Source of the DNA: Pirellulales bacterium
GTDB lineage: Bacteria; Planctomycetota; Planctomycetia; Pirellulales; DATAWG01
DNA length: 48,908 nt
Assembly: GCA_035939775.1 (NCBI GenBank)
Contig: DASZFO010000062.1
Coordinates: 1 to 48,908 of the forward strand
Direction: 5' to 3'
In this document: positions 8,685-18,912 of the stretch, in pieces
Layout: every line of letters starts with the position of its first letter
Numbering within the stretch: position 1 is the first letter of the stretch
Made by a program: the position numbers and the translations under genes
The notes under the pieces: generated by a model
Database searches by the model: none
Seen by the model: the letters and a program-made list of their open reading frames with translations, nothing else
Told to the model about the DNA's origin: nothing

Positions 8685-9959
8685 TCAGCGCCTCTCCCGT
8701 GAGTCAGCTAACCTAGACGCGAAGCTCGCCGCGGCGCGTTTTGCAGTCCCCTCTCCCTTTGGGAGAGGGTTAGGGTGAGGGGCGTCGCCTTCGACCTTCG
8801 TACTTTGTACTTGCGCGCCGTCAGCCAGCCAGCCCTCGCGGACTTCGGCCATCGGCGTCGATCGCAAAATTCCAAGGCCGCCTGGCAACTCGTATTTCCA
8901 GAGCATCGCACCCAAGAACATGACGGCGGCGATCGGCGTGCAGTATTTCAAGCAGGTCTTCATCACCTGATCGATGCGCAGCCGCGGCAACGTCCAGCGG
9001 ACCCACATCATCAGCGTGATGCCCAGGCTGCATTTGAACATGAAATTGAGCATCCCGAGCAAGTTGCCAAAGTAATGCAGCAGGGGATTTGTGGAATGGG
9101 CCAGGCCAAGCCACTGCGTGATCGGCACGGGGCCGTTCCAGCCGCCGAAGAACAGGATCGATGCCAATCCGCTTACGGCAAACATCGACCCATACTCGGC
9201 CATGAAGAAAAAGCTCCACCGCAGGCCGGAATACTCGGTGTGGAAACCGGCGACCAACTCACTCTCGGCCTCCGCCAGATCGAACGGGGCACGGTTGACG
9301 CTGGCGGTCGCGCAGGTGAAGTACACCCAGAAGATGATGAACGTGAATGGATCGTGGAATATAAACCAATGCGTGAACCATCCCCGCTGCATCTCGCCGA
9401 TCGTTACCAGATCCATCGAGCCCGCGATAAGCACCGGCACGACGATGCACATCCCCAGCGGCACCTCGTAGCTCACCACTTGGGCCGCCTCGCGCATCGC
9501 CCCGAATAGCGACCACTTCGAGGCCGACGAGTATCCGGCCAGGATCACGCCGAAGACTTCCAGCCCCAGCACGGCGATGATGAAGAATACCGCCACATTC
9601 AGCCGCAGCCCGACCCAGTTGTCGGCGAATGGAAGGGCGAAATACGCCGCGAACGAGGCGCAAAAGCTGACATACGGGGCGACGCGAAAGAGCATCCCGT
9701 CCGCCCCCTCGGGCATCAGGTCTTCTTTCGTGATCAACTTCAGACCGTCGGCTAGCGATTGGAGCCAGCCGAATTTACCGCCGACGCGCGTTGGCCCCAG
9801 CCGATCCTGAATGCGGCCGGAGACCTTTCGCTCCAGCCAAATGAAAAACAGGGCGCCGACGGCGACCACATTGATCAGCAGGGTCCCGTGGATCACCGCG
9901 GCCAAGGCGTAGCTCAGCCAGGACCACCATCCCCACGAATTGATAAAGAATTCGGCCAC
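8685..9959 (-). CDS. nuoH: NADH-quinone oxidoreductase subunit H
   Basis: Membrane subunit of complex I that forms most of the quinone-binding chamber at the junction with the peripheral arm. 424 aa with a GTG start at 9959; no better start is visible upstream, although the frame stays open. Hallmarks: ERKVSGRIQDRLGPTRVGG at 44-62, KEDLMPEGADGMLF, the NRAPFDLAEAESELVAGFHTEYSG block near 220-245, and MWVRWTLPRLRIDQVM. The last 40 residues are not NuoH-like: residues about 383-404 (including PHPNPLPKGEG) are encoded by two intergenic repeat families, followed by a basic tail ending ADSRERR. First gene of the nuo cluster, 226 bases downstream of proS. Confidence 0.96.
   Translation of the reverse strand: MAEFFINSWGWWSWLSYALAAVIHGTLLINVVAVGALFFIWLERKVSGRIQDRLGPTRVGGKFGWLQSLADGLKLITKEDLMPEGADGMLFRVAPYVSFCASFAAYFALPFADNWVGLRLNVAVFFIIAVLGLEVFGVILAGYSSASKWSLFGAMREAAQVVSYEVPLGMCIVVPVLIAGSMDLVTIGEMQRGWFTHWFIFHDPFTFIIFWVYFTCATASVNRAPFDLAEAESELVAGFHTEYSGLRWSFFFMAEYGSMFAVSGLASILFFGGWNGPVPITQWLGLAHSTNPLLHYFGNLLGMLNFMFKCSLGITLMMWVRWTLPRLRIDQVMKTCLKYCTPIAAVMFLGAMLWKYELPGGLGILRSTPMAEVREGWLADGAQVQSTKVEGDAPHPNPLPKGEGTAKRAAASFASRLADSRERR
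8748..8782. repeat. CCCTCTCCC-GGGAGAGGG repeat, encoding PHPNPLPKGEG
   Basis: A hairpin made by ccctctccctttgggagagg followed by gttagggtgagggg. This is the widespread repeat that yields PHPNPLPEGEG-like or LTLTLSQRERG-like peptides when read through. Here it is read in frame as the NuoH C-terminal tail. Confidence 0.85.
8796..8813. repeat. GAAGTAC/GTACTTC repeat, copy 2
   Basis: cttcgtactttgtacttg, inside the 3' end of the nuoH frame, immediately next to the CCCTCTCCC repeat. Confidence 0.65.
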
Positions 9960-10185: not shown

Positions 10186-11709
10186 TCAATACGCTTTCGC
10201 CAGCACGACGCGGCGGCCGCGTTTGCCGGTAAAGATGCAGCGCCCGTCGCCGCCATCGCCGCCGATTTCGCCGAGTCGCGACACGCAGCGGATCGTCACC
10301 TTGAGGTCCTTCAAGAGTTGATCCACCGCTGGATCTTCGGCCACGTGAGCCAAGGCGAAGCCGCCGTGGATCTCTGGCTGCTCCTCGTTTTTCGGCGTGA
10401 AGTAGCGGATAAACTCGTCGCGGTCGTTGAATTCGCGCGTGTTGGCTTCGCGCGCCGCAAGCGCCCTCTGAAAGAGTGCGGTTTGAATCTCGCCAAGCCG
10501 CTGATCGACGGTGGCGACAAACTCGCCGCGAGGGACGGATTTCTTTTCCTGTGTGTCGCGGCGGCCGACGAAGAGCGAATCGCCGGCCACGTCGCGCGGC
10601 CCGATCTCCAGCCGCAATGGCACTCCTTTCTTGATGTGCTGCCAGGTTTTCTCCCCGCCGCGCAAATCGCGGGTGTCGAAGATCACCCGAATTCTCTCGC
10701 CGTCGTAGGTCTTAGTCGCCAATTCTTGTTGCACGCGGCGGCAATAGTCGAGCACCGCGCTTTGCTCTTCGTCCGTGCGGAAGATCGGCAGAATGACGAC
10801 ATGCGCTGGGGCCAATCGCGGCGGAAGCACCAGCCCATCGTCGTCGCTATGGGTCATGATCAGCGCGCCGACCAGCCGAGTCGAAACGCCCCAGGAAGTG
10901 GTCCAGGCGAACGTTTCCTTGCCTTCCTGATTGAGAAACTTGATCTCCTGGGCCCGCGAGAAGTTCTGCCCGAGAAAGTGCGACGTGCCGGCCTGAAGCG
11001 CTTTGCGGTCCTGCATCATCGCCTCGATGCTGTAGGTATTCACCGCGCCGGGGAATCGCTCGCCGGCAGTCTTTTCTCCCTTGATGACCGGCATTGCCAT
11101 GTAGTCTTGGGCGAACGTCGCATAAAGATCGAGAATCTTGAGCGTCTCCTCCATCGCCTCGGCCTCGGTCGCGTGGGCCGTGTGACCTTCCTGCCACAAG
11201 AATTCGGTCGTGCGGAGAAAGAGGCGGGTGCGCATCTCCCAGCGCACGACGTTCGCCCATTGATTGATCAGGATCGGCAGATCGCGATACGATTGCACCC
11301 ACTTGGCATACATCGCGCCGATAATCGTTTCGCTCGTGGGCCGAATGACGAGCGGCTCTTCGAGCTTTCCGGTAGGAACTAGCCCGCCGCCAGGGCCGGC
11401 CTCAAGCCGATGGTGGGTGACCACGGCGCATTCCTTGGCAAAACCCTCGACGTGCTGCGCCTCCTTTTCCAAGTAACTCAGCGGGATGAAAAGTGGAAAG
11501 TAGGCGTTCTGATGCCCGGTCTCCTTGAACATCCGGTCGAGCGTGCGCTGGATGTTTTCCCAGATCGCGTAGCCCCAAGGCTTGATGACCATGCAACCGC
11601 GGACGGGCGAGATTTCCGCCAGATCGGCGGCCTTGACGACCTGCTGATACCATTCTGGATAGTCTGCTTCGCGAGTGGGAGTGATCGCAGTTTTCGGAGC
11701 TTTTGCCAT
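10186..11709 (-). CDS. proS: Prolyl-tRNA synthetase, archaeal/eukaryote-like type
   Basis: Class II aminoacyl-tRNA synthetase charging tRNA-Pro in the cytosol. 507 aa from the ATG at 11709 (MAKAPKTAITP); the open frame extends 36 codons further but that stretch is not conserved in character. It is the short ProRS type without the editing insertion: motif 1 region VRGCMVIKPWGYAIWENIQ; PLVIRPTSETIIGAMYAKW; motif 2 RWEMRTRLFLRTTEFLWQEG; TSHFLGQNFS; motif 3 region WGVSTRLVGALIMTHSDDDG. The C-terminus ends KAY, matching the conserved C-terminal Tyr of this type. It precedes nuoH on the same strand with 226 bases between. Confidence 0.95.
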   Translation of the reverse strand: MAKAPKTAITPTREADYPEWYQQVVKAADLAEISPVRGCMVIKPWGYAIWENIQRTLDRMFKETGHQNAYFPLFIPLSYLEKEAQHVEGFAKECAVVTHHRLEAGPGGGLVPTGKLEEPLVIRPTSETIIGAMYAKWVQSYRDLPILINQWANVVRWEMRTRLFLRTTEFLWQEGHTAHATEAEAMEETLKILDLYATFAQDYMAMPVIKGEKTAGERFPGAVNTYSIEAMMQDRKALQAGTSHFLGQNFSRAQEIKFLNQEGKETFAWTTSWGVSTRLVGALIMTHSDDDGLVLPPRLAPAHVVILPIFRTDEEQSAVLDYCRRVQQELATKTYDGERIRVIFDTRDLRGGEKTWQHIKKGVPLRLEIGPRDVAGDSLFVGRRDTQEKKSVPRGEFVATVDQRLGEIQTALFQRALAAREANTREFNDRDEFIRYFTPKNEEQPEIHGGFALAHVAEDPAVDQLLKDLKVTIRCVSRLGEIGGDGGDGRCIFTGKRGRRVVLAKAY

Positions 11710-11807
11710 GGGAAAGGTGGCGAGAGATAGTTGAAAGTCAAATGTCAATTGCGACGCTGACGTTTCGTTAGCCCGCTCGCTTGCGATCCGGTGGGCGCTT
11801 TGCGCGT

Positions 11808-11832
11808 CGGTTCGCAAGCGAACCGGTTAACG
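11808..11832. repeat. GGTTCGCAAGCGAACC palindrome, copy 1
   Basis: cggttcgcaagcgaaccggt followed by taacg, a perfect palindromic core in the gap between the ketosynthase-like gene and proS. A related inverted piece (gttagcccgctcgcttgcga) lies at 11767-11786. Copy 2 is at 32841. Confidence 0.7.
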
Positions 11833-11860: not shown

Positions 11861-13165
11861 TCACTCAAACCGCCGGACCATCACGGCGCTGGCTTGGCCT
11901 TGCGGCGTGACGCTCAGATTGATGAAGCTGCGGCCGGGCTCGGAGTGAGCGGGACCCGCCGGCGTGATCCGGCATTCGGGATCGGGAGTCTCGTAGTTCA
12001 AGATGGGTGGCAAGCAATCGTTCGACAGGGCCAGCACGCTGGCGATCAGCTCGACCATGCCGCTCCCTGCTCCGAGGTTGCCGAAAAAGCTCTTGGCGGC
12101 CGTGACCGGGATCCGGTTGGCCCGCTCGCCGAACACTTCGCGGATTGCCCGGGCTTCATCGGCATCGCTCGTGCGCGTTGAAAGACCGTGGGCGTGAATG
12201 TGGCCAACGTCGTCGGGGGGCGCGCCGGCCTCGGCGAGCGAGCGGCGGATCACGTTGGCCAGCGCTACATCGCGGTGAGCGACATAGTTCTTATCGGTGG
12301 CCTGCGACGATCCGGTCCCGACGATCTCAGCGTAAATCATCGCGCCGCGGGCTTCTGCCGAGCCCAGTTCCTCCAGCACGACGAGCGCCGCCCCTTCGCC
12401 GAGCACCATGCCGCTCCGATTGAGATCGAACGGACGGCTGGCTCGGGCCGGATCGACGCCGTTCGAGGCCAACTCTTCCTGCTGCGCGGCGTGGACCGAT
12501 TTCATCGGATGGACCCGTGTGCCCGTCGCGCCGGCCGCCATGATGTCAGCGCTACCGCGAGTGATCGTGTGAAACGCCTCGGCCACGGCCAGATTGGCGG
12601 CCGCCTCGCGATGCGTGATCGAGTTGTTCGGGCCACGAAGGTCGTTGTAGATCGCCACGTGGCTGGCCGGCATGTTCGGCAGATACTTGAGCAGCCACAG
12701 GGGAGTGATCTCGGCCATCCCCTCCTTACCCCAGCGCGAATAATCAAAGACGCCCTGTTCCGACCGACAACGATTCACCGCCGCGCTGAAATCCTCCGGC
12801 AGCGTGAGCATGTAGTCGGTGCCGAACACGCAGCCAATCCGCTCGGGATCGACGCCGCCGACCGCAATCTTCGCGTCGGCCAAGGCCAATTGCGCCGCGG
12901 CTACCCCCATCTGCGATTCGCGGCACATCAGCTTCAGCCCCTTGCGAATCGCCTTTTTCTGCTCTTTGTCGAGCGGGCCGAATTCCTCGATATCGCCGGA
13001 GAACTTGGCCTCCGCGGCAAATCGGGCCGGCAACGCCTCGACCAGTGGGCTGTTGAACGGCCCTACACCGCTGCGACCGGAAACGAGCGCATCCCAGAGG
13101 GCCTCCTTCGAATTGCCCAACGGGCTGACCAGGCCGATGCCGGTGATAACGACGCGACGAACCAT
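11861..13165 (-). CDS. Ketosynthase-fold protein (FabF-like) lacking the catalytic Cys
   Basis: Thiolase-fold protein clearly related to beta-ketoacyl-ACP synthase II over its whole 434 aa: MVRRVVITGIGLVSPLG at the N-terminus, RGSADIMAAGATGTRVHP, ASRPFDLNRSGMVLGEGAALVVLEE, HIHAHGLSTRTSDADEA, and a C-terminal VPTAAKS-like block. Start ATG 13165; the open frame continues 7 codons into a repeat. Aligned by eye without gaps from RGP to the ADIM block, the position of the nucleophilic Cys is Glu187 (NNSITHREAAANL). The first catalytic His is kept (H326 in HAHG) but the second is Asn363 (KSFFGNLGAG), and the C-terminal GFGG-type loop is replaced. It is therefore unlikely to condense acyl chains; a chain-length-factor-like partner or a scaffold role are alternatives. 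No acyl-carrier protein or active ketosynthase lies nearby. Confidence 0.9.
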   Translation of the reverse strand: MVRRVVITGIGLVSPLGNSKEALWDALVSGRSGVGPFNSPLVEALPARFAAEAKFSGDIEEFGPLDKEQKKAIRKGLKLMCRESQMGVAAAQLALADAKIAVGGVDPERIGCVFGTDYMLTLPEDFSAAVNRCRSEQGVFDYSRWGKEGMAEITPLWLLKYLPNMPASHVAIYNDLRGPNNSITHREAAANLAVAEAFHTITRGSADIMAAGATGTRVHPMKSVHAAQQEELASNGVDPARASRPFDLNRSGMVLGEGAALVVLEELGSAEARGAMIYAEIVGTGSSQATDKNYVAHRDVALANVIRRSLAEAGAPPDDVGHIHAHGLSTRTSDADEARAIREVFGERANRIPVTAAKSFFGNLGAGSGMVELIASVLALSNDCLPPILNYETPDPECRITPAGPAHSEPGRSFINLSVTPQGQASAVMVRRFE

Positions 13166-13409: not shown

Positions 13410-14702
13410 TTAGTAGCGGCCGCGGTACATCGAATTGTCGCGTTGGCCGGTGCGCGGCGGCGCGACGGGGGGCTTGCCGTTCGCCCCGCGATTATCGACG
13501 AAGACGAGCAGCTCCGCTCGCGGTGACTGCGTTATGAGCGGCAGTCTGACGCTTGGTTCCGGCGTCAACGGCGTCGCGATCACGCCGAAGCTGATTAGCA
13601 GCACCTGGTCGTTCGGCCAATGGAACCGCTCGTGGACTCGATAGCTGGCCCACTGCGGCACGTCGATGTCCGTATGCTGCCGCGGCGAGATGACCGTGGG
13701 CACGTCGATCGTCACCGGGACCATCTTTTCGAGTTGATCGACGTGGCACTTGAGCATCGCGTCGATCGATTTGCCATCGAGCGATAGGAGCGGGCTGAAC
13801 TCCAGCGAGAAACCCTCCTCGAATTGCGAAATCTGCGGCTCGAAGCCGGGATGGGCCTGCTCGGGGTGCAGAATTACGGCGCTCGAATAGTTTCGCGGGC
13901 GCATCGTCGAGACGACCGTCGATTGGCCGTTGTTCACGAGTAAATAGGGGGAGTTGTATTCGCGGAAATCACTCCGCTTGCGCATATCGGCCACCAGCAA
14001 CGACGCATCTTCCTTAGCGAGAATCCAGGCCTGAATCCCCTGCGACTGGACGGTCACAGGATGCAGCATCTTTTGGGCCTTCGCCCGCCAACTCGGCGTG
14101 CCGATGCTGGCGATCCGCAGGCCGAACGATTGCGTATCCGCCTCGCTGTTGACGAACCGATCGACCATCTCGGAAACCACTGCCTGCATTTCCGGCGTGT
14201 GATAGACGCGGAGCGTGCGATGGTCGGCGCTCAATAGGCCGACCGGATCGGAATGCCAGGCCTCGTAGCCCGTTTCGCGAAGAATCCAATCGACGATCGC
14301 CTGCTCGGGACGATTCGTGGATGTGACGCGGAGCGTATAGGGGGTGATGTCATATTCGCGCCAGATTTGGCCCTTGTCGTTGGGGAGCGTACCGTTGCCG
14401 TTGGTCACCTTGGCGATCGGAGCGCGCTGCATGGCGGGAGTCGCCGTGGCACTAGCGCGCGTAGCCGGCGGGATGGAGTAATTCGACGAGGGAGCGCTGT
14501 TCGATGCGGCGGCCGATGGCGACCGCCACATGGAATGGCTCGTATCGGCGCCGTTGTCGGTCGACGGTCCAACGGAACCCATGGTCGGCAGTGGGACCGC
14601 AGGACCAGGATTTAGCGGGCCGGGGGCTTGCCCGCGGGCGAAACAAGCGAACATCAGGCTGGCAGCGACGCCCACCAGCAGGGCTTTCGACGAGGCGAGC
14701 AT
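13410..14702 (-). CDS. Secreted hypothetical protein with secretin-like features
   Basis: Exported protein of 430 aa. Residues 1-25 are a signal peptide (KALLVGVAASLMFACFARG); 26-100 are Pro/Ser/Ala-rich and probably disordered. From about 105 there is a structured region: TNRPEQAIVDWILRETGYEA and TLRVYHTPEMQAVVSEMVDR resemble the N-domain pattern of secretins, where a short beta strand is followed by a helix ending before a conserved pair of hydrophobics. Around 285-390, EEGFSLEFSPLLSLDGKSID and DNRGAN after ELLVFV resemble the secretin barrel region, but the fit is loose. SD ggaggc lies 7 bases before the ATG. Function is unknown; planctomycete-specific family is likely. Confidence 0.55.
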   Translation of the reverse strand: MLASSKALLVGVAASLMFACFARGQAPGPLNPGPAVPLPTMGSVGPSTDNGADTSHSMWRSPSAAASNSAPSSNYSIPPATRASATATPAMQRAPIAKVTNGNGTLPNDKGQIWREYDITPYTLRVTSTNRPEQAIVDWILRETGYEAWHSDPVGLLSADHRTLRVYHTPEMQAVVSEMVDRFVNSEADTQSFGLRIASIGTPSWRAKAQKMLHPVTVQSQGIQAWILAKEDASLLVADMRKRSDFREYNSPYLLVNNGQSTVVSTMRPRNYSSAVILHPEQAHPGFEPQISQFEEGFSLEFSPLLSLDGKSIDAMLKCHVDQLEKMVPVTIDVPTVISPRQHTDIDVPQWASYRVHERFHWPNDQVLLISFGVIATPLTPEPSVRLPLITQSPRAELLVFVDNRGANGKPPVAPPRTGQRDNSMYRGRY

Positions 14703-15654: not shown

Positions 15655-18600
15655 CTAATAGTTTCTCGGTTTCGCAAATCGCGAAGTCTTTCTTTCATGG
15701 CTGAGCAGACCGATCATTGCGATCGCCAGCAGCACGATCGTCGTGGGCTCCGGCACCGTTGCGGATGCGAATTCGGCGCTCGGATTATTCAGCGAAAGCG
15801 CGAGGTCCGTGCCCATCGAGTCGCTGCTAGCCGTGTCGCCGATCAAGGCGCTGGAACCCAGCCCCGCGCCAAACGGATCGCTCGGCGAGAGCGAACCGGC
15901 TAACGACATGTCGCTTGCCAGCGGATTGCCGTTGGAATCCGAGGCGTCGATCGTCACCAGGGCCGGGCTGCCGGATGCGCCCCCGACGAACAAAGCATTC
16001 TGGATGATGTGGTCGGCGGTGAGACTGCCACCGGCGTTCACCTGCGTTATGCCAGTGCCATCGAGTCCACCCATGATTCGACTGGTTTCTGCGACCTTCG
16101 CGCTGCCGTCGTTGACTACATGCCCGATAATCGTGCCGATGCCCTCGAGCAACCCGTTGGGACCGACGTGCAAAGTTCCAGCGGCGGCTGGCAAGCCGCC
16201 CGACCCGACTGCCATTCGTCCCCCTGTGACATTGACCGTTCCTTGAGCGCCGATTTGTAGCTCGCTACCGACAGTGACTGCGCCATTCGAGGCGACGACC
16301 AGCGAGCCGTTGCCGCCCGAGCCACTCCCGCCGGAACCGCTGCCGTCACTGGCTATGAAGAGGGAGCCGTCCACGTTCCAAGTCGAATTCGTGCCGGTTA
16401 CGGTCGCATGGCCGACGGCGCCGGAGAAGCGGCCAACGTAGCCGCTGGCGGAGTGGACCAATCCTCCCGCTTCGACCATCATCGTGCCTTGCCCATCAAA
16501 GCCAACGGACAGGCCACCATTCTGGGTCCAGGTCGAACCGGCACCGGTAACCGTTACCGTGCCGGTGCCGCCCGTGTTTCCCCCGATCACCCCGCTCGTT
16601 CCGGTGGGAGACCCCGTCGAACCGGTCGAAAACACAGCGCCCGCGGCGATGGTCAGCGAACCGGCTCCGCTATTGCCAACATCCATCTGTTCGGCAATGG
16701 TCCAAGTCGTGCCGGCATCCGTAATGGTCAGATCCCCTTGGCTGCCGGCGGAGGCCCCGACGAGGGCCCCCCCTTGGCCAGTAACCGCCGCGCCGCCGCT
16801 GAACTGGGCCGTCGCGCGGCCGCCGGTGGCGACGGCAAGAAACTGCGCAATGTCCATTTTCGAGTTCGGGCCGCTCACGGTGATCGACGCCGTGCTGTCC
16901 GCATCGAGCGCGACGTTCGAACCTGTGATCGAGGCCGTGCCGCTGGTGATTGTCAGCGACGACTGACCTTCGCCTCCGAGCGTGAGGCCTCCGGAGAAAG
17001 TGCCGCCATTGATGACGACGTTGCCGACGGAACCGCTGGCGGCGGCGGTGGAGAGGATTGGTGTGGTGACTTGGGCGCCGTTGTTGATGTTGAGCGTCCC
17101 GTGGCCGGCGTTGCCGATAGACAGTGCGCTCGATGCATTGAGCGAGGAATTGGCGCCGGTTACGGTGATGGTGGCCGTGCTGTCGCTGGAGAGGGCCACG
17201 TTCGCGTTAGTGAGCATCGCGGCGCCGCTGTTGATCGTTAGCGACGACTGACCATGGCCCCCAAGCGAGAGGCCGCCGGAGAGCGTGCCGCCATTGATAA
17301 CGATATCGCCGACGGAGCCGCTGGCGGCGGCGGTCGATAGCAGCGGAGTAGTGACTTGGGCGCCGCTGCCGATGGTAAGAGTCCCCTGACCGTCCGTGCC
17401 GACCGACAGCGAATTCGAAACGTTGAGTTGAGAACCGGCGCCGCTGAGGGAAATGTCGCCGATCGCACCGCTGGCCAGGGCGGTGCTGAGCAGCGGTGTG
17501 GTGACTTGGGCGCCGTTGTTGATGTTGAGCGTCCCGTGGCCGGCGCTGCCGATAGACAGTGCGCTCGATGCATTGAGCGAGGAATTGGCGCCGGTGACGG
17601 TGATGGTGGCCGTGCTGTCGCTGGAGAGGGCCACGTTCGCGTTGGTGAGCATCGCGGCGCCGCTGTTGATCGTTAGCGACGACTGACCATGGCCCCCAAG
17701 CGAGAGGCCGCTGGAGAGTGTGCCGCCATTGATGACGATATCGCCGACGGACCCGCTGGCCGCGGCGGTGGAGAGCAGCGGCGTGGTGACTTGGGCGCCG
17801 CTGCCGATGGTAAGCGTCCCCTGACCGGCGGTGCCGACCGACAGCGAATTCGAAACATTGAGTTGAGAACCGGCGCCGCTGAGGGAGATGTCGCCGACCG
17901 AGCCGCTTGCCAGGGCCGTGGAAAGGAAAGGCGTAGTGACTTGGGCGCCGCTTCCGATGTTGAGCGTTCCGTGGCCGCCCGTGCCGAGCGATATCGCGGT
18001 CGAGGCGTCGAGCGTCGAACTGGCGCCGGTGACGGTGATAGTCGCCGTGCTGTCGCTGAATAAGGCCACGTTGACGTTGGTTAGCGACGCCCCGCCGCTG
18101 TTGACCGTCAACGACGCTTGGCCGTGGCCACCGAGTGTGAGCGGGCCAGAGCACGTTCCGCCATTGATCGAGATGTCTCCGACCGATCCGCTGGCGGCCG
18201 CGGCCGTGAGCAGGTTCGCATTGAGTTGGGCGCCGTTATTGACGTTTAGCGTGCCGAGCCCGTTGACGCCGACATTGATGCCGTTGGAATTCGAGTCGTT
18301 CCAAAGAGTGCTGGAGCCCGTGAGGATCACGGTGCCGCTGGTGGCCGAATCGAGGCCGAGCGATGCGCCATTGCTGGTCAGCGTGCCCGATCCGGTCACC
18401 GTCAAGGAGGCGCCCCCCAGTCCGCCGCCGTCGATCAGCGAACCAATGACGAAGCTCCCCGCGCCGGTCACCGTGAGATTACCGGTCGCGGCATTAGGAG
18501 GAGCGTTGAACGCATCGAAGTTGAAAACCCAGGTGTTGTTCTGCACATCGAGCGCAGCGACGGTAGCCGTGCCGGCCGCAAAGGGGATCGTCTGCGGCGG

Positions 18601-18912
18601 ATTGATGATTTGCTTGTTGAAGTCACCGAAATAAACCCGGAATGGGCTATTCGGGGGAGGATTCACCGCGTTGAAGACGGCGCGGTCGGAAGCGCCCGGA
18701 AATCCGGCGCTCCAATTCGATCCATCGAACCATGACGCGTCGAGCGGAAACTCCAGATTGGGCTGCGACTGCGGAGTCCAAACGCTATTCATGGCGCGTC
18801 CGTTGCCGGCCAAGAGTCCCAACCCGATCAATGCCGTCAATCCGCAACACCGAACTGTTTCCAAAACCATGCGGACCAGATTGCAATCGCGATACCCGTG
18901 CCAGCCGTACAT
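15655..18912 (-). CDS. PEP-CTERM surface protein with long beta-repeat array
   Basis: Exported, sorted surface protein of 1085 aa. N-terminus: about 25 leading residues, then hydrophobic GLTALIGLGLLAGNGRA signal. The body is a Gly/Ser/Thr/Asn-rich array of short beta units (TLTIGSGAQVTTPLLSTA, SLTINSGAAMLTNANVAL, TATITVTGANSSLNASSA), in the style of autotransporter passenger or filamentous adhesin repeats, so a beta-solenoid is likely. The C-terminus is a PEP-CTERM tag: VPEPTTIVLLAIAMIGLLSH followed by basic residues, for recognition and cleavage by an exosortase, which is not in this window. The first ~110 residues before the repeats (WFDGSNWSAGFPG) are a separate domain. Start ATG at 18912 with AAGGGG upstream. 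Single-gene unit. Confidence 0.92.
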   Translation of the reverse strand: MYGWHGYRDCNLVRMVLETVRCCGLTALIGLGLLAGNGRAMNSVWTPQSQPNLEFPLDASWFDGSNWSAGFPGASDRAVFNAVNPPPNSPFRVYFGDFNKQIINPPQTIPFAAGTATVAALDVQNNTWVFNFDAFNAPPNAATGNLTVTGAGSFVIGSLIDGGGLGGASLTVTGSGTLTSNGASLGLDSATSGTVILTGSSTLWNDSNSNGINVGVNGLGTLNVNNGAQLNANLLTAAAASGSVGDISINGGTCSGPLTLGGHGQASLTVNSGGASLTNVNVALFSDSTATITVTGASSTLDASTAISLGTGGHGTLNIGSGAQVTTPFLSTALASGSVGDISLSGAGSQLNVSNSLSVGTAGQGTLTIGSGAQVTTPLLSTAAASGSVGDIVINGGTLSSGLSLGGHGQSSLTINSGAAMLTNANVALSSDSTATITVTGANSSLNASSALSIGSAGHGTLNINNGAQVTTPLLSTALASGAIGDISLSGAGSQLNVSNSLSVGTDGQGTLTIGSGAQVTTPLLSTAAASGSVGDIVINGGTLSGGLSLGGHGQSSLTINSGAAMLTNANVALSSDSTATITVTGANSSLNASSALSIGNAGHGTLNINNGAQVTTPILSTAAASGSVGNVVINGGTFSGGLTLGGEGQSSLTITSGTASITGSNVALDADSTASITVSGPNSKMDIAQFLAVATGGRATAQFSGGAAVTGQGGALVGASAGSQGDLTITDAGTTWTIAEQMDVGNSGAGSLTIAAGAVFSTGSTGSPTGTSGVIGGNTGGTGTVTVTGAGSTWTQNGGLSVGFDGQGTMMVEAGGLVHSASGYVGRFSGAVGHATVTGTNSTWNVDGSLFIASDGSGSGGSGSGGNGSLVVASNGAVTVGSELQIGAQGTVNVTGGRMAVGSGGLPAAAGTLHVGPNGLLEGIGTIIGHVVNDGSAKVAETSRIMGGLDGTGITQVNAGGSLTADHIIQNALFVGGASGSPALVTIDASDSNGNPLASDMSLAGSLSPSDPFGAGLGSSALIGDTASSDSMGTDLALSLNNPSAEFASATVPEPTTIVLLAIAMIGLLSHERKTSRFAKPRNY
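16980..18180 (-). repeat. 435-bp internal tandem repeats of the PEP-CTERM gene
   Basis: Identical landmarks recur exactly 435 bases apart: ttgatcgttagcgacgactg starts at 17231 and again at 17666. Two copies are nearly identical at DNA level and a third, toward the protein N-terminus, is diverged. Each 145-aa unit holds three related sub-repeats of about 48 aa. The copy number is likely variable between strains and easily collapsed in assembly. Confidence 0.85.

Follow-up and report, generated by a model that had tools for sequence, protein, structure and literature searches.

In the 48,908-nt stretch of planctomycete DNA that was analysed as a whole (the window), we identified a gene for a ketosynthase (KS)-fold protein, here called KSE, with glutamate at the position of the catalytic cysteine and asparagine at that of the second catalytic histidine. 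KSE belongs to a clade of Glu/Asp ketosynthases that is present almost throughout the Planctomycetia. We propose, as the more probable reading of the evidence, that KSE is a non-condensing subunit resembling chain-length factors (CLFs), which pairs with an intact Cys-His-His ketosynthase. The names used here for the class (Planctomycetia) and the order (Pirellulales) were taken from the titles of named loci.

Active-site residues and predicted fold of KSE

Residues of KSE were assigned by alignment with E. coli FabF from the annotated MG1655 genome. The features of the gene are listed below, with counts that refer to KSE and 80 orthologues (the set of 81).

11861–13165, minus strand: acid-site ketosynthase gene KSE, 434 aa plus stop (ATG at 13165, stop at 11861)
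Reaching to 13186, minus strand: longer KSE reading frame with a TTG start; homologues start near the ATG at 13165
12932–12946, minus strand: basic patch R74-K75-x-x-K78, at the position of FabF ACP-docking region 1 (Lys65, Arg68, Lys69)
12674–12703, minus strand: PLWLLKYLPN motif, typical of the family
12605–12607, minus strand: GAG codon of Glu187, at the FabF catalytic Cys position (Glu in 81/81)
12188–12190, minus strand: CAC codon of His326, the first catalytic His (His in 75/81; Gln in 3, Phe in 2, Asn in 1)
12092–12094, minus strand: AAG codon of Lys358, the active-site Lys (80/81)
12077–12079, minus strand: AAC codon of Asn363, at the second catalytic His position (Asn in 81/81)
12050–12052, minus strand: GAG codon of Glu372, the retained KS Glu (81/81)
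11894–11908, minus strand: TPQGQ segment, in place of the FabF GFGG gating loop

The original prediction, made from the sequence alone, had described a KS-fold protein with Glu187, a retained first His and Asn363. The FabF alignment and the minus-strand codons for E187, H326, K358, N363 and E372 confirm this, residue numbers included. The predicted loss of the GFGGTN-like loop was borne out as well, as FGFGGTN of FabF is replaced by VTPQGQA in KSE. Both ketoacyl-synthase domains of Pfam (PF00109/PF02801; 126.3 and 91.1 bits) span the full length of the protein. The AF2 single-chain model (pLDDT 95.5) superimposes on FabF with VIA Z 59 over 403 residues, and its nearest structures have the FabF fold, C163Q mutants included; by this prediction KSE is a complete KS fold. 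With both domains and the thiolase-like KS fold, KSE is a member of the beta-ketoacyl synthase superfamily. It falls outside FabF/KAS II on score, with 283.9 bits against the NCBIfam fabF model (TIGR03150; cut-off 493.75) compared with 610.8 bits for the FabF of the same genome, and on its triad, which is Glu-His-Asn and not Cys-His-His. Since both the acyl-loading nucleophile and the gate are lost, we infer that condensation by KSE alone is very unlikely, and the residues are consistent with the non-condensing type of KS that had been predicted.

Conservation and spread in the Planctomycetia

The genome that contains the window has five KS genes: KSE (copy A), a second acid-site gene (copy B; L002, contig C148), two Cys-His-His KSs (L003 and L004) and a canonical FabF (L005). 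Fixation of Glu and Asn among homologues had been suggested as a check on the original prediction, and for copy A both residues proved constant (81/81 each). The set of 81 consists of KSE and 80 loci from a motif scan of named genomes, all titled planctomycetes. Conservation of the PLWLLKYLPN-like motif is biased in this set, because that motif was used for the scan, and Glu187 and Asn363 lie outside it. A second set of 32 copy A sequences came from a whole-genome protein search free of this selection, and gave Glu187 in 32/32, Asn363 in 31/32 and Lys358 in 32/32. Asp334 and Glu337 are likewise found in 81/81 of the first set. Orthologues with the usual Cys/His/His residues had been named as the observation that would speak against the prediction, and no Cys was found at the Glu187 position in any copy A orthologue of either set.

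KSE had a match in all 57 genomes of the protein search (its own and those of relatives). Across the class, KSE is matched at E 1e-78 or better in 244/248 genomes, with active-site residues read in fetched loci only. In an even sample of the phylum, matches were found in 21/214 genomes, all from the same class except for one family in which they are Cys KSs. Mean pairwise identity over 18 loci was 59% for KSE compared with 71% for FabF, demonstrating that KSE is under constraint. The absence of the catalytic Cys and second His could be taken to mean that KSE is a decayed or mis-sequenced copy of FabF. We give this virtually no weight: it is excluded by the fixation of Glu187 and Asn363 in 81/81, by the matches in 244/248 class genomes, by the full-length open frame and by constrained evolution. 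Six records (L101, L103, L108, L112, L124 and L135) are titled Candidatus Kuenenia stuttgartiensis, yet have a Pirellulales-type KSE within the FAS operon; these titles of metagenome-assembled genomes are probably wrong.

Copy B also has Glu and Asn in this genome, and its acid position is looser than that of copy A (n = 26; Glu in 22, Asp in 3, Ser in 1). It is divergent from a fatty-acid desaturase gene, and the same pairing was seen in L046, L048 and L049; a desaturase gene was divergent from copy B in 4/6 Pirellulales loci. No conserved KS partner was found near copy B in the six Pirellulales neighbourhoods examined. This genome additionally encodes a secondary FAS cluster with the order dehydratase-ACP-dehydratase-KS (L036, 3988–6894 on contig C315; also L003, where 3 bp separate the dehydratase from the KS), which is without the acid KS that other families have there.

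Gene neighbourhoods, tandem pairs and origin

Within the window, KSE is flanked by proS and by a gene whose product is apparently exported, with no adjoining KS or ACP gene:

10186–11817, minus strand: proS, downstream neighbour of KSE in this genome only (1/58 loci)
13410–14702, minus strand: secretin-like gene (WREY), conserved upstream neighbour of KSE; apparent signal peptide, no Pfam match

The description of KSE as alone beside proS, without a partner KS or ACP next to it, is accurate for this genome and does not extend to its relatives, many of which have it in the FAS operon or in tandem with a Cys-His-His KS. As proS adjoins KSE in this genome only, it was rejected as a functional partner. 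The AF2 model of the WREY protein (pLDDT 78.8) weakly matches bacterial secretins (best Foldseek E 1.4e-4; VIA Z 8.2, with a large rmsd), and we treat its predicted secretin-like fold, a modest match, as a lead only. Two further observations were made in the window. Positions 15655–18912 encode a 1085-aa protein with long degenerate internal repeats and a PEP-CTERM-like end (VPEPTTIVLLAIAMIGLL). The nuoH frame terminates at 8748–8774 with the tail PHPNPLPKGEGT, as if a dispersed repeat element encoded the C-terminus.

The common gene order across the 81 loci, kept wholly or partly in many, is ruvC-ruvA-ruvB-fabD-fabG-acpP-fabF-(secretin-like gene)-KSE-nusA-infB-rbfA-yebC. Counting only loci with sufficient flank, the secretin-like gene is upstream of KSE in 50/73 and nusA is downstream in 25/52, and for 20 of the 56 well-covered Pirellulales loci fabF is found upstream at no more than 5 kb. 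KSE follows fabF directly, with a gap of 49–258 bp, in five Pirellulales loci, and a second family retains fabD-acpP-fabF-KSE-nusA-infB-rbfA (L165, L167). This conserved order shows that, in many relatives, KSE is a member of the primary fatty-acid operon, and that its gene was probably relocated within the lineage of this window.

A conserved partner gene had also been suggested as something to look for, and one was found in five other families (f90–f94). In these, the acid KS immediately precedes a Cys-His-His KS within a secondary type II FAS cluster. The cluster also contains fabG, ACP and two dehydratase genes of the FabA-like type, frequently together with a hydrolase and a GH3-type ligase. 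The partner KS is downstream and on the same strand for 19/19 sampled acid KSs, with spacings that range from overlapping reading frames to 229 bp when the longest possible start of each frame is used. Of the tandem acid KSs, 13 have Asp and 6 have Glu, and all 19 partners retain the Cys, both His, the Lys and the Glu. In one sampled f90 genome, the best match (L234, 7256–8704) is a sister-type Cys KS and not an acid KS.

In the phylogenetic tree, all acid KSs (copies A and B and the tandem acid KSs) form a single clade with support of 100/100, and the operon FabF lies outside it. The nearest relatives of this clade are Cys KSs from another planctomycete family, each encoded by the leading gene of a KS-KS tandem. 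The partners of the acid KSs group nearest to the KSs from the second genes, and these tandems remain Cys/Cys. Streptomyces CLF groups with Streptomyces KSs, apart from the acid clade, on a long and unsure branch. The simplest history is that the first KS of a KS-KS tandem exchanged its Cys for a carboxylate and was later copied into the primary FAS operon.

Possible functions of KSE

We consider a CLF-like role for KSE the most probable. Under this proposal, the family would have a single origin, in which the leading KS of an ancestral KS-KS tandem exchanged its Cys for Glu or Asp. KSE would pair with an intact Cys-His-His KS that performs the condensation, and would itself assist ACP docking and shape the pocket. 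Several families have retained the acid KS next to its Cys partner (fabG-ACP-dehydratases-acid KS-Cys KS). Copy A of Pirellulales and one additional family has its place after fabF in the primary operon, where the likely partner would be FabF or the unlinked ancestral partner KS. We infer heterodimer formation, the lack of condensation and any influence on chain length or on the choice of substrate. That the primary FAS of Planctomycetia runs on a FabF-KSE heterodimer, with an independently evolved CLF-like subunit that was drawn into the housekeeping FAS operon and sets acyl chain length or ACP traffic there, is a more tentative extension, which we consider doubtful.

Several lines of evidence favour the CLF-like subunit. 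In the set of 81, Glu and Asn are fixed and Cys is absent; the gate loop is lost, while the predicted fold is a full KS and the gene is under constraint. The acid KSs form one clade with an ancestry in KS-KS tandems, acid and Cys KSs are paired in tandem, and KSE comes after acpP-fabF in many Pirellulales loci, an order that a second family retains. The region 1 patch is basic at all three positions in 81/81. Most ACP docking contacts in FabF come from the monomer that is not crosslinked to ACP (PMC7138838), so that a non-catalytic partner could still contribute to docking. Several observations count against it. The fabF and KSE genes are often separated by the secretin-like gene in Pirellulales, and in many genomes, this one included, KSE is unlinked to any KS. 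The acid KS comes first in the tandems, whereas in the annotated Streptomyces pair the KS precedes the CLF. In addition, ACP-docking region 2 is lost, with Glu at the Arg206 position in 75/81, and the mostly kept His/Lys/Glu network would be needless for a purely structural subunit.

The main rival to a CLF-like subunit is malonyl-ACP decarboxylation, which we judge unlikely. KSE would act as KSQ domains do, with Glu for Gln and a His-Asn pair, and its product, acetyl-ACP, would prime FAS or tune malonyl-ACP. The first catalytic His is the decarboxylation base in FabB/FabF, and the His-Asn pair is the arrangement of FabH, which has a Cys-His-Asn triad. In support, His326 (75/81), Lys358 (80/81), Asn363 and Glu372 (81/81 each) are largely or fully conserved, and a His-Asn pair with Lys could support decarboxylation. 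The operon place after acpP and fabF also fits. The Mad malonyl-ACP decarboxylases (MadA/YiiD and MadB; PMC8666670) would be functional analogues from a different family, YiiD_C, which is present in only 4/53 related genomes and leaves the role vacant. However, 6/81 copies of A have lost the base His but retain Glu, which weakens this proposal; the His is also lost in 7/26 copies of B and 5/19 tandem copies, with the acid mostly still present. Furthermore, the acid alternates between Glu and Asp, with no Gln seen. FabH scores above its cut-off in 47/53 genomes, so no absent primer enzyme demands KSE, and replacement of a missing FabH was rejected as the driver.

Somewhat less probable still is that KSE is a pseudoenzyme that acts as a homodimer, binding malonyl- or acyl-ACP as a FAS sensor or scaffold without a KS partner. 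The operon position, the basic ACP patch and the loss of the nucleophile and gate loop would all suit such a protein, and the more degenerate copies of B, with their desaturase neighbour in 4/6 loci, fit roles away from a Cys KS. Pairing in 19/19 sampled tandem loci of other families and the ancestry of the pair instead indicate a KS partner. New chemistry, with the carboxylate as nucleophile or base (e.g. acyl transfer to a non-standard acceptor), would account for the carboxylate, one of the most constant features in the clade, and for the mostly kept His/Lys/Glu shell. It seems far-fetched to us, since a thiol is normally required for KS acyl chemistry, and locus A showed no substrate-specific gene conserved together with KSE.

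The original prediction had likened KSE to a CLF or KSQ; the non-condensing type stands, but the residue set is that of neither. Like actinobacterial CLF (KS beta), KSE has a KS fold without the nucleophile, and acid KSs of the five families with tandems are likewise found beside a Cys KS and ACP. However, Streptomyces CLF (L184) has Gln at the Cys position, Asp and Arg at the first and second His, and no basic patch. KSE has Glu and mostly keeps the first His, and by these residues KSE falls outside the actinobacterial CLF family. In KSQ loading domains, Gln occurs with both His. As in these domains and in C163Q FabF mutants, the Cys of the acid clade is replaced by a side chain of similar shape, but the clade has Glu or Asp with a His-Asn pair in a free-standing protein. 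KSE resembles FabF (KAS II) in fold, length and Lys/Glu/Asp shell, with about 30–36% identity over aligned structures, and differs from it in the missing Cys, second His and GFGG gate. No Glu-type KSQ or CLF precedent was found in the open-access literature, where absence proves little.

The Glu/Asn residues themselves are not a new observation, as they were tabulated in 2009 for Rhodopirellula baltica NP_866153 (RB4527), which has Glu163, His298, Leu300, Lys328, Asn333, Glu342 and Pro392, the same set as KSE; NP_865682 (RB3714) has Asp163 (Rattray et al. 2009, PMC2649909). The former is very probably the orthologue of copy A and the latter copy B. In the ladderane context of that study, the two were seen as odd fabF paralogues and a different substrate and function were suggested; its passages on this pair contain no orthologue survey, operon, partner or mechanism. 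A KS-CLF catalogue counts Planctomycetes among its phyla (PMC10132072) and may hold some of the tandem pairs. No description of the class-wide acid clade, its place in the FAS operon or its tandem ancestry came to light in the open-access literature.

These results matter for annotation: genes like KSE are easily labelled fabF despite missing FabF residues. If the proposed role is true, a CLF-like subunit, known from polyketide synthesis, would have evolved a second time and joined the near-universal FAS of a large bacterial class. As both Cys/Cys and acid/Cys pairs survive, they would provide a case in which to test how KS-KS tandems give rise to inactive KS subunits, and the clade may have a bearing on the unusual membrane lipids of planctomycetes.
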